From Candidatus Peregrinibacteria bacterium (lineage in GTDB: Bacteria > Patescibacteriota > Gracilibacteria > UM-FILTER-43-11): a DNA stretch of 64,000 nt. Numbering within the stretch: the first letter of the stretch is position 1; each line of letters starts with the position of its first letter. The notes beneath the pieces are model-generated. The model worked only from the letters and a program-made list of their open reading frames with translations. It had not been told where the DNA came from and ran no database searches. The translations under genes were made by a program, and so were the position numbers. Positions 1,785 to 56,564 of the stretch are shown one piece after another. The stretch covers positions 1 through 64,000 of the forward strand of contig JAFGCT010000023.1 in the NCBI GenBank assembly GCA_016932505.1. The letters run 5' to 3'.

Positions 1785-1820
1785 AAAAAAGCGGGGGGGA
1801 AGCGCAAGCCTTCCACCCCC
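1785..1820 (-). terminator. Rho-independent terminator (minus strand)
   Basis: Minus strand GGGGGTGGAAG-gcttgcg-CTTCCCCCCCGC followed by TTTTTT. Confidence 0.8.
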
Positions 1821-2352
1821 ATAATGTACGGAGAAGTTTGAAAATGTGATTGAAAAAAAGAATTTGAAGGAGAAGTGCCCGTTTTAAATTGTGCAAGAGT
1901 GCCTAATACTCCACGATAGCTGCGGAATTAGGCGCGGCCGGCGACGATAGCTTCGATTTTGTTGGAGGCGACGATAACTTCGGCGATGGTCAACGAACCT
2001 CTTCTTTTTTTGTGAAGTGTTGCCGTACTGTTCGCCGCTTTTGCCTTCGATGTGCCCATTCGTTCCGTCATGTCGTCTTGCCAGTGTCTCATCATCCTAC
2101 TCCATTCTTGGTTCAGCACACCTCGTGCACTGCACCGGTTGTGACTATCATCCCCATCAGGGATAACAGTCGTTTCAATTCACACCAAAACAAAAGTATC
2201 GGAAGTCACTTGGACTCTTTCCGCCACTTATGCAAAGGTGCTTTTTATACGCTCAAAAAAATAAACGCACAAAACACACCTTTACTAAAGCTTAATTTTT
2301 AGCAGAAAACATTTTTGTTTTTGGGTGTAAGCCATTTTCAAAGATCATGTAC
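1791..2352 (-). ncRNA. Candidate structured non-coding RNA of unknown family
   Basis: Minus-strand TTGACA-N16-TATTAT promoter (2387..2360), terminator at 1785-1820, locally GC-rich, no convincing protein, strong hairpins at 1901-1933, 2110-2136, 2143-2171 and 2200-2223 with G.U pairs only on the minus strand. Confidence 0.6.
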
Positions 2353-2359
2353 TGAAACG

Positions 2360-2387
2360 ATAATATATAATATTAAAAAAGTGTCAA
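2360..2387 (-). promoter_or_regulatory. Sigma70-like promoter for the minus-strand RNA unit
   Basis: Reverse complement reads TTGACA (2387-2382), 16-nt spacer, TATTAT (2365-2360). Confidence 0.6.
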
Positions 2388-8188: not shown

Positions 8189-8878
8189 TTAATGATTATT
8201 CCTATCTCTATCCCACATCTGCGGGTTGTAATAAATATATTCTTGGATTTTGAGTAATTCTTTGTCATTGGTAATTATGTGGTCGTAAAATCGTGATTGC
8301 CATTGGAAGTTTGGGTATTTTTTATGTATTTCAAATACCGTTCGACCTTTAAACCAACGTATAATTTCACCCAATGACCCCTTGCCCATTGGATTATGAC
8401 ATCTTGTGACACCACCCGTAGAGACGCGATTAATCGCGTCTCTACGTTGGATTGACGATGATTGTGGTTTATCAATCGCCTCACCCCAATCACCCGCCCC
8501 CACGATGGATGTTATATCGTTTTGTGGTTTATCAATCGCCTCACCCCAATCACCCGTCCCCACGGTGGATGTTATATCGTTTTGTGGTTTATCAATTATT
8601 ATAATCCCATGAACATGGTTTGGCATTATCACCCATTCGTCCAATCGGACGTTTTTAAAATGATTTGGTATTTCCTGCCAATATTTTGTTGCGATACATC
8701 CAATTTCATTCAACCCCATAACAAAATTCCGCACTTCACCAAAATGATTCACCATTTTTTTGGTGCATATTGTTATAAAATACCAACCATCATTGGAATA
8801 ATCCCAATTCGGTAATCGGGTGGACTTGATACGGAATTTTTCTTTATACAAAATTTTATCTAATTCTTGTTTATACAT
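8189..8878 (-). CDS. REP-associated tyrosine transposase (RAYT, Y1_Tnp family)
   Basis: HUH motif in MPNHVHGIIII; IRWFKGR...NFQWQSRFYDHIITNDKELLKIQEYIYYNPQMW is the typical RAYT C-terminus. Confidence 0.9.
   Translation of the reverse strand: MYKQELDKILYKEKFRIKSTRLPNWDYSNDGWYFITICTKKMVNHFGEVRNFVMGLNEIGCIATKYWQEIPNHFKNVRLDEWVIMPNHVHGIIIIDKPQNDITSTVGTGDWGEAIDKPQNDITSIVGAGDWGEAIDKPQSSSIQRRDAINRVSTGGVTRCHNPMGKGSLGEIIRWFKGRTVFEIHKKYPNFQWQSRFYDHIITNDKELLKIQEYIYYNPQMWDRDRNNH
8417..8446. repeat. Perfect 30-bp REP-like palindrome inside the RAYT ORF
   Basis: CGTAGAGACGCGATTAATCGCGTCTCTACG is its own reverse complement. Confidence 0.9.
8461..8597. repeat. 60-bp in-frame tandem repeat (2.3 copies) inside the RAYT ORF
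   Basis: 8461-8520 and 8521-8580 near-identical, third partial; encodes IDKPQNDITS(T/I)VG(T/A)GDWGEA. Confidence 0.9.
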
Positions 8879-9057: not shown

Positions 9058-12000
9058 TTAGTCAATTGAATGAGATGTTAATTCGCTTATCTTCAATAGG
9101 TAACCGTTAGCCCAATCAAGTGAGCTTGTATCGATTGTAGTGTTAACACCAGCTATTGTAGTGTAAGCTTTTACGTCAGCTGATCTATCAGACCAAACGA
9201 AATCAGCAGTTGGAGTAGTAGCATCAGCAAGATAGTCATCAGTAGCAACCATTAATGAGCCACTTGTACCACCAACTACAGTAGAGAAGATACCATTTCG
9301 GCTTTCTGTCATAGGAGTTGCATCATCGTCATCAGAAAGTCTGGTAACGATAGTTTCACCGTTAAGAATTGCACCAGTAATATCAGCGTCTAAGTAGAAA
9401 GTAGCACTTGAACCTGCGTCAATGATTTGTTCCTGAAGTAATGCAACGATTACATCAGCAGAACCATTACTCATAGCAGCATCACCCTCAGCTATACTAG
9501 CAGCACCATCTTCATAGATAGTAGCCTTAGCAGCTGTACCGGAAAGTTTAGTACTTCCTTTGTAGAACTTGAATTCATCCAATACACCACCAGCAGATGT
9601 CTCAGAAACATTGAATACCATACGACCTAAAGATATAGGACCGTTAGAATCTGCAGTAATTGTAACACCGAATAGTCTGTTATCTGTAGCAGATGGACTA
9701 GCATTAGTGTTCAAAGAACTAGCTTTTGTAATGATTGGTTTAGATTTGTGAACTACGAATGGATTTATAGAAGCAACACCATTAATCAAATCTGTAGCTA
9801 GAGCACTTTGTACTCCTGCAACAGTATTCATGTTGTTAGTTTCAGAAGAACTAGCACCTACAGCCTCGAAAGTACTGATAGTGTTAGAAATATTCTGTAA
9901 TCCAAGACGGATTGTAGTACCAGTAGCAGTTTCACCACCGGCAGTAACCATAGTGTTGATGTCTGCTTCTACTAAAAGAACAGCATCTTCACCAGCTGGA
10001 ACATAGAAGTCAAGATTAGAGAAAGTAGCAACGCCAGCATTCATAACTTTAGTAGCAGTCTGTGTGTAACCAGTTGCATCTGGATAAGAAATAGTAATTG
10101 ACTTAACAACTGGAGCAGCAGTAACGTTGTCTCCAAAGTCAGCACCGGTAACATCGTTAACGATAGTTAACTTGTTAACATTGTATCCTTCCTGTAATGC
10201 GCTGAATGTGTATTGAGCAATATCAGCACCATCAGAATTAGTTACCAAAATTTCAGAATCTTCACCATCAGATGAAACAGAAAGTGAACCGTTCTGAGCA
10301 ATTGTAGCTAAAGGTGTCTTAGTAGTAGTAGCATTAAGTGCACCACCAACTGGAGTAATTGTGTTTGCATCAGCATCTTCAGCAACCATTGTAGCTGGAT
10401 CCAAATCTACTGCAACATAAGAAACACCAGTCATAGTGTTAAGTAAAGCTACTTTAGCCACTAATGATTTAGTATCTCCTGCTTCAATAGTAAGATTTAA
10501 ATCGTCAAACTGAGAAGTGTATACACCTCCAGAAAGAGAAAGTCCTTTAGGACCTGCAATAACATCATCACCATCGTAAAGAGTTACAGATGAAACAACA
10601 GTATTAGCAGCAATATCACCACCAACAGTACCCCAAACATTTGTAGCACTATTTGCATAAACTTTAATGTTTAAACGTTTAACTGTAATATCACCTGCAT
10701 CACCTGCAGTCATAGCAAATCCAAGAGCTGGAACAGCTAGATCTCCTTTAACATAGTTGTAAGAAGTAGGAGTAGCAGATTTTGCAACAGTAAGACTGTT
10801 AGCAGCAACTGACATCCATTTTCCACCTAATGCACCAATTTCACTAGAAGCACCTACAACATCAGTTCTAGGAACATATTCGTTAGCAGCCATGTCTTTC
10901 ATGTAACTGTTTCCGGAAGCATCAGTAGAATCACCATAAGCAATGCTAGCTTTGATTCTGTAATTTGCAGGAAGGTCCTGGTGAAGATCAACTTCAACAG
11001 CTAAGTGACGAGTGTCACCACCTGTTAGTTCGTAGTCTTCAGAAAGAACTTTACTGTAAGAAGAAGTAGCACCAGCAGTTGCCAAATCAGCACCTGCATT
11101 AGCTGTAGTCAAAGGACCAGCCAAAGTAGAACCACTGTCTACGTCTACCAAACGTACGTTTTTAACGTAATCGTATGGATTAACTTCAGTGATAGTACCG
11201 TTAGCTGTTGGAGTACCATTAAGTGCCTGAACAGTGTATACACCAGCACCAACAACAACAGATATAATAGTGTATTCAGTACCTACAGAAGTAGGAACCT
11301 GAAGCATATCACCAACTGCCCAACTTGCAGAAGCAACACCTACATCGATAGAAGTAGCTGTACTAGCACCAGCGTTTTCAGTACCAGAAGTCATAGCGGC
11401 AGATAGATCTGGTCCAGTAGCGGCACCAAGAGTGTTCTGAACTTCAACCTTTAAGTATGTATCACGTACAGTCAAATCACGACCGGAAGTTAATCCGAAT
11501 GCAAGGATTTGGTTGTTTGTAGTGTTCTGAGCAATTTGAGCGGAAGCAGGGCTGTTGTCTACAACAGTAACTTCACCACCTTTAAGAGTTAAAGGAGTAG
11601 TTGAACCACTAGCGAAGTTATTAGTAACAACTCCACCGAAACCATATTGTTGGTCAACAACAACTAGGTCAGTGTTTTCATCAAGATAAAGTTGGATAGT
11701 ATCAGTAGTTCGTCCACCATCTATATCACAATGTACATAGAAAGTTTTAGATTGACCTTCTGGAATTATATAAGGTGTATCAAGAACGAATGATACACGA
11801 TCACCATCGAAACCGTCAGCAGTAGCAACTTCGTCTGCACTGCGTAGTAAACGGCAGTTAACCATTTTATCACTGTTTAATCCACCAGCCTGAGTAAGAG
11901 AAACTTTGTGAAGAGCGATATCGTTAGTAGAACCTGCAGTTACTTTGAAAGTAGCAATTTCTGCATCCATTTCACCAATTGAAGGCTGAGCTGGAGCAGA

Positions 12001-13191
12001 ACCTGGAGCTATAGTAACTGTGTTAACAGCTGTACCAGTAGCACCAATTGTGAAAGTATTTCCAGCAACTGGGAAGTCACCAGAAGTAGCCATAGCGTTT
12101 GAAGAAACATCAGCAGCAGAAGCTATATAGAAATAATGCTGGTTAGAAGCACCTGCAAAACCAGTGTTTACTAGATCACCAACAAGAGTTAGAGAAGTAG
12201 TAGTACCAGCTTCTACAAGTAGGCTGCTAAGAGCAAAAGTAGCAGTATTTGTATCGCTATTGATTGTGCGACCAGTAGTTAAACGTTTAGCACCATCATA
12301 TAGGTATAGAGCATCCCAATCTGAAGTTAAACCAACACCACCACGAGTAACAACGATTTCAGTAACGTTTACATCGTCATCAGCAGCAGTAATATCGATA
12401 GAAAGAAGATCTACAGAAGAAGCGTATTGAGGAAGAGTAGATGAAGCTGGAGTATCGTCGTTTAGAGATACTTCAAGATCACCTTCACTAGTTTCTTCAC
12501 CTTCACCTTCACCTTCACCTTCACCTTCACCTTCACCTTCTCCGGAAACTCTTTCAACTGGATTCTGAGAATTTACAACAAGTTTTGCAACCTGTGCACG
12601 AGTTACAGCATCAGCAGGACCGAATGAACCGTTTGCGTAACCATCAAGAATTGATTGGTTGTATGCAGTTACTACATAGTCGTAGTACCATGCACCGCTA
12701 GTTACATCAGCGAAAACTGAAGCTGGAGCAAGATCTGTAGGAACGCTGTATGCGTTTACAAGGATTTTAGTTGCAGCAGCACGGTTAACTGTATCTCCAG
12801 GTCCGAACATTCCTGTTAGGTTTCCTGAAGCATCAGTGTATCCGTTTACTATACCAAGTTGTACAGCAGCTTCAACATAATCGTAATACCATGCGTCAAC
12901 AGCAACATCATCGAAAGTTGGAGTAGCAGGAGCTTCGTATCCAGCTAGACCATCGATAGATGTGATTACGATTTTAACTAATTCAGCACGATTAAGTGCA
13001 TCGTTTGGACGATAGTTGTCACTGGCATCAATGACTCCATCATCTACGAGTTGTTCAACATAGTCGAAGTACCAAGCGTCTGTTGATACGTCGTTGAACG
13101 TCTGAGCAATAGCAACAGAAGCTGTAGATGCGAATAACGCAGTAGCAGCAACAGTAGCAAATGCTTTTTTGAATTTAAGAGCAATATCCAT
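9058..13191 (-). CDS. Large SLH-domain S-layer-like protein
   Basis: Signal peptide, three SLH-like repeats (FNDVSTDAWYFDYVEQLVDDGVI..., FDDVAVDAWYYDYVEAAVQLGIVNGY..., FADVTSGAWYYDYVVTAYNQSILDGY...), (GE)n linker, about 1100-aa Ser/Thr/Ala-rich beta-type ectodomain. Confidence 0.88.
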   Translation of the reverse strand: MDIALKFKKAFATVAATALFASTASVAIAQTFNDVSTDAWYFDYVEQLVDDGVIDASDNYRPNDALNRAELVKIVITSIDGLAGYEAPATPTFDDVAVDAWYYDYVEAAVQLGIVNGYTDASGNLTGMFGPGDTVNRAAATKILVNAYSVPTDLAPASVFADVTSGAWYYDYVVTAYNQSILDGYANGSFGPADAVTRAQVAKLVVNSQNPVERVSGEGEGEGEGEGEGEGEETSEGDLEVSLNDDTPASSTLPQYASSVDLLSIDITAADDDVNVTEIVVTRGGVGLTSDWDALYLYDGAKRLTTGRTINSDTNTATFALSSLLVEAGTTTSLTLVGDLVNTGFAGASNQHYFYIASAADVSSNAMATSGDFPVAGNTFTIGATGTAVNTVTIAPGSAPAQPSIGEMDAEIATFKVTAGSTNDIALHKVSLTQAGGLNSDKMVNCRLLRSADEVATADGFDGDRVSFVLDTPYIIPEGQSKTFYVHCDIDGGRTTDTIQLYLDENTDLVVVDQQYGFGGVVTNNFASGSTTPLTLKGGEVTVVDNSPASAQIAQNTTNNQILAFGLTSGRDLTVRDTYLKVEVQNTLGAATGPDLSAAMTSGTENAGASTATSIDVGVASASWAVGDMLQVPTSVGTEYTIISVVVGAGVYTVQALNGTPTANGTITEVNPYDYVKNVRLVDVDSGSTLAGPLTTANAGADLATAGATSSYSKVLSEDYELTGGDTRHLAVEVDLHQDLPANYRIKASIAYGDSTDASGNSYMKDMAANEYVPRTDVVGASSEIGALGGKWMSVAANSLTVAKSATPTSYNYVKGDLAVPALGFAMTAGDAGDITVKRLNIKVYANSATNVWGTVGGDIAANTVVSSVTLYDGDDVIAGPKGLSLSGGVYTSQFDDLNLTIEAGDTKSLVAKVALLNTMTGVSYVAVDLDPATMVAEDADANTITPVGGALNATTTKTPLATIAQNGSLSVSSDGEDSEILVTNSDGADIAQYTFSALQEGYNVNKLTIVNDVTGADFGDNVTAAPVVKSITISYPDATGYTQTATKVMNAGVATFSNLDFYVPAGEDAVLLVEADINTMVTAGGETATGTTIRLGLQNISNTISTFEAVGASSSETNNMNTVAGVQSALATDLINGVASINPFVVHKSKPIITKASSLNTNASPSATDNRLFGVTITADSNGPISLGRMVFNVSETSAGGVLDEFKFYKGSTKLSGTAAKATIYEDGAASIAEGDAAMSNGSADVIVALLQEQIIDAGSSATFYLDADITGAILNGETIVTRLSDDDDATPMTESRNGIFSTVVGGTSGSLMVATDDYLADATTPTADFVWSDRSADVKAYTTIAGVNTTIDTSSLDWANGYLLKISELTSHSID

Positions 13192-54971: not shown

Positions 54972-56564
54972 CTACTGAATAATCACACTCACACCCCTAA
55001 GATTAATAGCAGGGGATGTTGTTATTGTATAACCATTCAAAGGGGTTGCAGGAAATCCAAAGCGCATATCAATAGTCGGCAAATCATAAATCGAATCTAA
55101 ATAAAGCTTAATTGTGTCGGTTGTGCGCCCACCATTAATATAACACTTAACATAAAAATTTCTTTTTTGGTCATTCTTAATTATGTAAGGAGATGGAAAC
55201 GCAAATATCAATTTATCTCCATAAAAACCTTCTGCAGTAGAAATTAAATCTCCATTATCCAATAAACTGCAATCGGTCATTTTATCTGAACTAAAGGTGC
55301 CACCCTGAGTTAACATTACCGCTCTTAGTGCAATATCACCCGGTGAACCTGCTTCAAGTCTAAATGCTGCTATTTCCGAATAGTCATCTCTTCTAGGGGC
55401 TACAGGAGTTAATCCAGGAGTTACAGTTATGGTATTCGCATATATATTGCCAATATTAACCGCATTGCCAGACATTGGGAAATCTCCAATTACCGATGAA
55501 GCGCTGGAAGAAATATCGGATGCAGAAGCTAGAGAGAAAAAATGTTCATTAGTAGGTGTAGCATATGGGTGAACATCACCATATGCTGCAATGTTTACCG
55601 TTTGACCTGCACCTACAAATACATTAAGTGGTATTGTTACCTTATTTGTATCTGCGCTAATTGTGAACTCTGAAGGAGTAATTTTAAACATACCCTGATA
55701 TACATATATACCAATCCAATCAGAAGAAGCCCCAACTCCTGAGCGAGTTAATGATATTTCAGAAACTAAAACATCAGCATCTGTAGCAGTTAAATCCAAA
55801 TTGATTAGATGTCCTGTGCTTAAAAGTGGAACGGTTATAGGGGGATACTGAGATTGCCCTAAAGACACAATTAATCCATTTTCCTCCATTATTACTTCAT
55901 CAGATGCCACATTCCTGAGTTCGCTTTCTCTATCATCAATCTGCTTAGAATTAGCAATAAGTTTTGCAATTTGAGAACGTGTAATAGGATCAGCAGGCCC
56001 AAAATTACCATCTGCATAACCATCTAATATTCCATTATTAAAAGCGGTAACTACATAATCGTAATACCACATATCTTTTATTACATCTGGGAAAATTGAT
56101 TCGGTCTCGGTATTTATTGGAATATTAAAAGCTGTGATAAGAATTTTCGTTGCAGCATCACGCGTTACAAAATCATTATACCCAAATATATCAGTTGGAT
56201 TGTCATCAACATCCGTATAACCACCAATAATATTTAACTGAACGGCAGCCTCAATGTAATCAAAGTACTCAGAATTGGCAGGAACATCACTAAATGTAGG
56301 ATTTTCCGGAGATTCATAATCAGATAATCCATCAACTGCCTTAACAATCATTTTAGCTAGCTCTGCTCTGGTAAGATTATCATTTGGACGATACTCATCG
56401 CCAAATTCAATTACTCCACCCTGCACAAGCTCCTCAACATAATTATAATACCAAGAATCTACCGGCACATCATTAAAAGTTTGAGCAAAAACAAATTGAG
56501 TATTTACTACAAACAAAGCTACTGCAGAAAAAACAACAAAAGCTTTTTTTATATCTTCAAACAT
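54972..56564 (-). CDS. Shorter SLH protein paralogous to the N-terminal part of the 9058-13191 protein
   Basis: Same order of SLH repeats and following domains; C-terminus corresponds to GGRTTDTIxLYLD...LRG of the large protein. Confidence 0.9.
   Translation of the reverse strand: MFEDIKKAFVVFSAVALFVVNTQFVFAQTFNDVPVDSWYYNYVEELVQGGVIEFGDEYRPNDNLTRAELAKMIVKAVDGLSDYESPENPTFSDVPANSEYFDYIEAAVQLNIIGGYTDVDDNPTDIFGYNDFVTRDAATKILITAFNIPINTETESIFPDVIKDMWYYDYVVTAFNNGILDGYADGNFGPADPITRSQIAKLIANSKQIDDRESELRNVASDEVIMEENGLIVSLGQSQYPPITVPLLSTGHLINLDLTATDADVLVSEISLTRSGVGASSDWIGIYVYQGMFKITPSEFTISADTNKVTIPLNVFVGAGQTVNIAAYGDVHPYATPTNEHFFSLASASDISSSASSVIGDFPMSGNAVNIGNIYANTITVTPGLTPVAPRRDDYSEIAAFRLEAGSPGDIALRAVMLTQGGTFSSDKMTDCSLLDNGDLISTAEGFYGDKLIFAFPSPYIIKNDQKRNFYVKCYINGGRTTDTIKLYLDSIYDLPTIDMRFGFPATPLNGYTITTSPAINLRGVSVIIQ

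Follow-up and report, generated by a model that had tools for sequence, protein, structure and literature searches.

A stretch of minus-strand DNA between gpmI and relA/spoT in the genome of an uncultured Candidatus Peregrinibacteria bacterium is probably a boxA-led gene whose product, about 569 nt long, is a structured RNA that is not translated. Coordinates below refer to the window, meaning the whole 64,000-nucleotide stretch analysed, with which contig C30 begins; the genome measures 1.35 Mb. A predicted promoter, a boxA-like motif common to tmRNA leaders, a strand-specific fold, a putative terminator and an expanded intergenic gap were all read from the sequence. The untranslated and structured nature of the unit is the best-supported part of this reading; the gene itself is a probable orphan, specific to its lineage, and not an established RNA family.

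Genomic setting

The unit lies between the divergently oriented genes gpmI and relA/spoT, both confirmed by Pfam, and is present in a single copy in the genome. The same two genes stand side by side, again in divergent orientation, in ten family members with contigs that carry both. Here the gap measures 843 nt, compared with 86-226 nt in nine of the ten relatives, and the extra DNA sits between the promoter-like sites of gpmI and relA; both genes are intact, and each appears to have its own promoter-like site. In G009 (L053), which belongs to another genus, the gap is 663 nt long and filled with repeats, and its sequence is unrelated to the unit; the gpmI/relA gap may be a spot that tolerates insertions. 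The sole same-genus genome in the comparison, G001 (72% complete), has a contig that stops 140 nt upstream of gpmI in a hairpin repeat. Because this contig ends next to gpmI, G001 is uninformative on the presence or absence of the unit. The contig end itself (L071:1-31) is a perfect hairpin repeat, GGGCGGATTTTCTCGTAGAGAAAATCCGCCC.

The short gap of the nine relatives, a single-copy unit with no detected homologs, the repeats in G009 and at the G001 contig end, and a Y1 (RAYT-like) transposase gene 6 kb away would all fit an insertion, recently acquired or decaying, that serves no function today and whose promoter, boxA-like word and hairpins arose by chance or were left over from another element. 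However, the promoter, the boxA-like start, the end-pairing helix and the terminator are all intact and correctly spaced, the fold is strand-specific, and matches to phages and plasmids are only short, chance ones; we consider such an insertion unlikely. The transposase gene (8189-8878, minus strand) encodes an IS200-like Y1 transposase (PF01797), probably of the RAYT type, i.e., a REP-associated transposase. Elsewhere on the minus strand of the window, 9058-13191 and 54972-56564 encode large S-layer-homology (SLH) proteins.

The GC content is 44% over the unit and 51% at 1900-2179, compared with 35% for the window, which bears out the GC-richer stretch in an AT-rich genome described in the original prediction, a note made from the sequence alone. 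At 0.44, the unit falls within the range of the genome's own noncoding RNAs (tmRNA, 0.45; RNase P RNA, 0.47; 6S RNA, 0.41). Published work treats long intergenic regions of high GC content as a hint of structured noncoding RNAs (PMC8632094).

A separate observation concerns the neighbouring gene. The RelA genes of some class members (L061, L062; matches in G028 and G039) carry 9-45 in-frame TGA codons. TGA is probably read as sense in these members and seems to be used as a stop in the window's genome.

Promoter, terminator and predicted transcript

The near-consensus promoter that had been proposed is present at 2387-2360 on the minus strand. It is of the sigma-70 type, TTGACA-N16-TATTAT, and agrees with the consensus at 11/12 positions (TTGACA at 2387-2382, a 16-nt spacer and TATTAT at 2365-2360). 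Taken alone, the promoter is weak and unremarkable evidence in an AT-rich genome; eight sites this good occur in the window, compared with 2-4 expected per 64 kb of Markov sequence. The proposed strong terminator was likewise found, at 1820-1785 on the minus strand, as the intrinsic terminator GGGGGUGGAAG-GCUUGCG-CUUCCCCCCC-GC-UUUUUU, with a six-U tract and pairing probabilities of 0.89-1.0; a pattern-based terminator scan of the window did not list it. With a start near 2353, placed from the -10 box, and an end at the terminator, the predicted minus-strand transcript runs from 2353 to 1785 (~569 nt), and its 5' end reads AGUACAU-GAUCUUUGAAA-AUGG.

The terminator lies 136 nt ahead of the gpmI start codon, and the unit shares its strand with gpmI. 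The same elements could therefore be read as a long gpmI leader of riboswitch-like character, with transcription from 2387 attenuated at the 1785 terminator and reading through into gpmI. This is very unlikely: a separate promoter-like site with an extended -10 (1701-1673, 9/12) stands between the terminator and gpmI, no convincing antiterminator pairing could be seen by eye, gpmI of the relatives has no such leader, and the unit has no match to an Rfam riboswitch. Beside the terminator there are perfect inverted repeats, TGTGATTTAT/ATAAATCACA and TTTCAATCACAT/ATGTGATTGAAA (1703-1745; 1726-1737/1844-1855), reminiscent of a CRP/FNR-type operator or of an additional hairpin ahead of gpmI.

A boxA-like start, as in tmRNA leaders

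In rRNA leaders, boxA is the NusB-NusE site. The predicted transcript carries a boxA-like element, GATCTTTGAAA, near its 5' end (2346-2336, minus strand), 13 nt after the -10 box, which places it within the first tens of transcript nucleotides, as in a boxA-led unit. This opening is a newly noticed feature, missing from the original prediction; it was spotted post hoc, with a motif definition drawn from the literature and from tmRNA leaders. GATCTTTGAAA resembles the boxA consensus of another group, the gamma-proteobacterial GYTCTTTAANA, and boxA is also found in some mRNA leaders (PMC5725501). There are 387 promoter-like matches in the window, and only the one at 2387-2360 and another that overlaps it, at 2396, are followed by a boxA-like motif within 35 nt downstream; such boxA-like 11-mers number four on 128 kb of strand, GATCTTTGAAA being one of them. 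GATCTTTGAAA is one base off GYTCTTTRANA, at position 2, and the same deviation occurs in the tmRNA leader of G020 and in a leader of G040 (reverse strand), which reads GATCTTTAACA and precedes a gene that we take, by eye, to be 23S rRNA.

We examined the leaders of 29 tmRNA genes from the same class, including that of the window's own genome, searching the 150 nt upstream of each tmRNA for TCTTT[AG]A[ACT]A. The pattern is present in 13/29 leaders, compared with 0.013 expected per leader at the window's rate. In 11 of the 29 genomes, this one included, it stands at exactly -12/-13 relative to the tmRNA 5' end, just past the -10 box (L022, L023, L027, L082, L083, L084, L085, L086, L089, L090 and L099). 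The remaining 16 leaders lack the strict motif, several of them having near misses, and the motif was absent from the seven RNase P leaders examined. We know of no earlier report of a boxA-like motif at tmRNA starts in this class.

Fold of the RNA

Folded as the minus strand, the 569 nt reach -185.3 kcal/mol (z = -5.25), a value that none of 100 shuffles equalled, versus -159.9 kcal/mol (z = -1.98) for the plus strand, in agreement with the minus strand as the folding strand claimed earlier. In 120-nt windows on the minus strand, the excess is located in 2100-2340 (z from -3.7 to -6.2, the latter at 2180-2299). From 1900 to 2100 the RNA folds no better than shuffles, and 1700-1859, a region that includes the terminator hairpin, has a fold excess on both strands.

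The ends of the predicted RNA pair with each other. A closing helix of 10 perfect Watson-Crick pairs (p = 0.99) joins TTTGAAAATG at 2342-2333 (UUUGAAAAUG as RNA) to CATTTTCAAA at 1846-1837, both on the minus strand, and the full-length ensemble adds a pairing of GUAC at 2352-2349 with 1829-1826. The folded stretch is flanked by the promoter and the terminator, and the helix that pairs its ends falls in register with both of them. The helix has P = 0.0006 against shuffled ends; since the comparison with genomic pairs of equal spacing yields only P = 0.027, the paired ends are suggestive, not proof.

Inside the closing helix, a first domain (2330-2180, minus strand; p = 0.59-1.0) consists of a long stem, 2330-2308/2200-2180, enclosing two hairpins: a 25-nt imperfect hairpin at 2290-2227, which like the closing helix was not listed before, and a hairpin at 2223-2200, the outer pairs of which are partly lost to the longer stem in the full-length ensemble. 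It is followed on the same strand by the 13-pair hairpin GACUGUUAUCCCU/GGGGAUGAUAGUC at 2171-2143 (p = 0.98), the hairpin GGUGCAGUGCAC-GAG-GUGUGCUGAACC at 2136-2110 (p = 0.93-0.99) and, beyond a middle region that is loosely paired in the ensemble, the hairpin GCCUAAU-UCCGC...GUGGA-GU-AUUAGGC at 1933-1901 (p = 0.84-0.99). Thus, the four hairpins of the original prediction (2223-2200, 2171-2143, 2136-2110 and 1933-1901) are all in place, with most of their pairs well supported in the ensemble. The repeated motif that it had noted before the last stem is GAAGYTATCGTCGCC, found in two copies at 1982-1940 on the minus strand, with a weaker third copy at 1924-1909 inside the last hairpin.

Coding potential

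The only coding candidate in the unit is a 55-residue open reading frame at 2095-1928 on the minus strand, which has start and stop codons and, 4-7 nt before ATGATG, a GGAG. With purines at 79% of its first codon positions, it could be taken as a small gene for a basic protein, the unit then being an mRNA with a structured 5' leader. The frame is nevertheless unlikely to be a gene because searches of 194 genomes, viral contigs and phages gave no homolog and no family match was credible, because it fits coding sequence poorly (codon-phase score of -3.2, near the 1st percentile of genuine coding segments; P = 0.10 versus shuffles), and because no Shine-Dalgarno sequence (GGAG/AGGA/GAGG, 21 nt before the start codon) precedes any of 26 window genes, the upstream stretches being A/T-rich. 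The opposite strand, moreover, carries a longer chance frame. The mRNA is accordingly an improbable reading of the unit. A prepilin-like interpretation of the frame (KKRRGSLTIAEVIVAS) was rejected, there being neither a hydrophobic stretch nor a family match.

Search for known families and homologs

The Rfam scan that the original prediction had called for (Rfam 15; 4227 families, at gathering thresholds and at E up to 10) gave no credible match in the unit. The best match, snR31 (26 bits; gathering threshold, 45), covers the terminator hairpin only and was rejected. Covariance models likewise gave no match of the unit to tmRNA, RNase P, SRP or 6S RNA, in line with the original prediction. For tmRNA (RF00023), neither Rfam nor ARAGORN found a match in the unit, the genuine gene being at G000:C38:5236-5674 (105 bits); the genuine RNase P RNA (RF00010) and 6S RNA (RF00013) are at G000:C6:116509-116896 (187 bits) and G000:C9:38063-38217 (49 bits), again with no match in the unit, and bacterial SRP RNA had none at E up to 10. 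OLE, ROOL and GOLLD were likewise not among the matches to the unit at E up to 10. As an observation on the class, the small bacterial SRP RNA model RF00169 found no convincing match in 31 genomes (this one, G000, and 30 relatives of the class).

Two other element types were considered and set aside. Integron attC sites are expected to carry an AAC/GTT core, which is absent from the GCCTAAT...ATTAGGC hairpin. A retron or omega RNA was considered for the paired ends, but neither a reverse transcriptase gene nor one for TnpB was noticed next to the unit.

Conservation in relatives was not borne out. By blastn, the unit has no homolog in 41 relatives or in 389 genomes of the phylum, and only short chance matches to phages and plasmids. 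The best match, 34 nt in G040 (E = 3.6e-4), lies in the 5' part of the presumed 23S rRNA gene and was judged to be chance, the rRNA sense strand corresponding to the opposite strand of the unit. Two single-sequence covariance models, R1 and R2 (131 and 221 nt), a type of model with little power for distant homologs, gave a single chance match of 18 bits in 100 genomes and nothing in 194, and exact patterns found nothing in viral contigs apart from one 21-nt GC-rich match with no further similarity. As no homologs were found, covariation cannot be shown. Of the "undescribed structured RNA" first proposed, then, an independent minus-strand unit, structured, probably untranslated and without a credible Rfam match, stands, and a conserved homolog does not.

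Discussion

From these features we infer how the unit might be transcribed, bind Nus factors, be processed and act in trans. RNA polymerase would begin near 2353, and the boxA-like start may recruit NusB-NusE, which would let a long untranslated RNA escape Rho termination in the way that rRNA does. The transcript would then fold into a multi-domain structure with its ends joined in a leader-trailer-like helix, and transcription would halt at the 1785 terminator, ahead of gpmI. Its most likely mode of action would be in trans, as a stable, protein-binding or self-assembling RNA like 6S RNA and the large ornate RNAs, a role to which we give somewhat less than even probability.

Several known systems share parts of this design. 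6S RNA has paired ends and codes for no protein; the unit has paired ends as well but no match to the 6S model, and the genome's 6S RNA is elsewhere. Closest in its start is the tmRNA unit of the same Patescibacteria class, in which TCTTT[AG]A[ACT]A likewise stands right past the -10 box of an untranslated structured RNA, although the unit has no tmRNA match by Rfam or ARAGORN and the genome's own tmRNA is on C38. The Escherichia coli rRNA operon leader (PMC10250234, PMC5725501) is alike in its boxA-like start and mutually pairing RNA ends; in contrast, the unit encloses no rRNA, its helix overlaps the boxA word itself and, at 10 + 4 pairs, that helix is shorter than the at least 17 needed for E. 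coli 16S. OLE, ROOL and GOLLD (PMC12286853) are comparable in size range and multi-stem architecture, but the unit has no match to their covariance models, and no prophage or tRNA-island setting was seen. The 520-nt lncRNA of Lactobacillus salivarius is also long, untranslated, confined to a single species and of unclear function; it is, however, proven, very abundant and megaplasmid-borne, whereas the RNA described here is predicted and lies between chromosomal housekeeping genes (PMC5643018).

A more far-reaching version of the preferred reading is that the unit represents a new class of large structured noncoding RNA with a boxA start in Patescibacteria, made by the antitermination route of rRNA and tmRNA. 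Such an RNA would work in trans, as a machine of RNA alone or of RNA and protein, and sequence searches would miss its relatives because these have diverged too far or are sampled too poorly. We regard this combination as rather unlikely. The most useful by-product of the analysis is the boxA-like start at many tmRNA transcripts in the class. A promoter, a boxA within 35 nt and a fold together offer a homology-free handle for untranslated RNA genes in these genomes. Genomes of ~1 Mb spare little room for idle DNA, and for one of them to keep a 570-nt untranslated unit with a promoter, boxA-like start and terminator of its own would be a considerable outlay. The RNA genes of this phylum have hardly been explored, and the unit, if expressed, would contribute a large orphan RNA to them.
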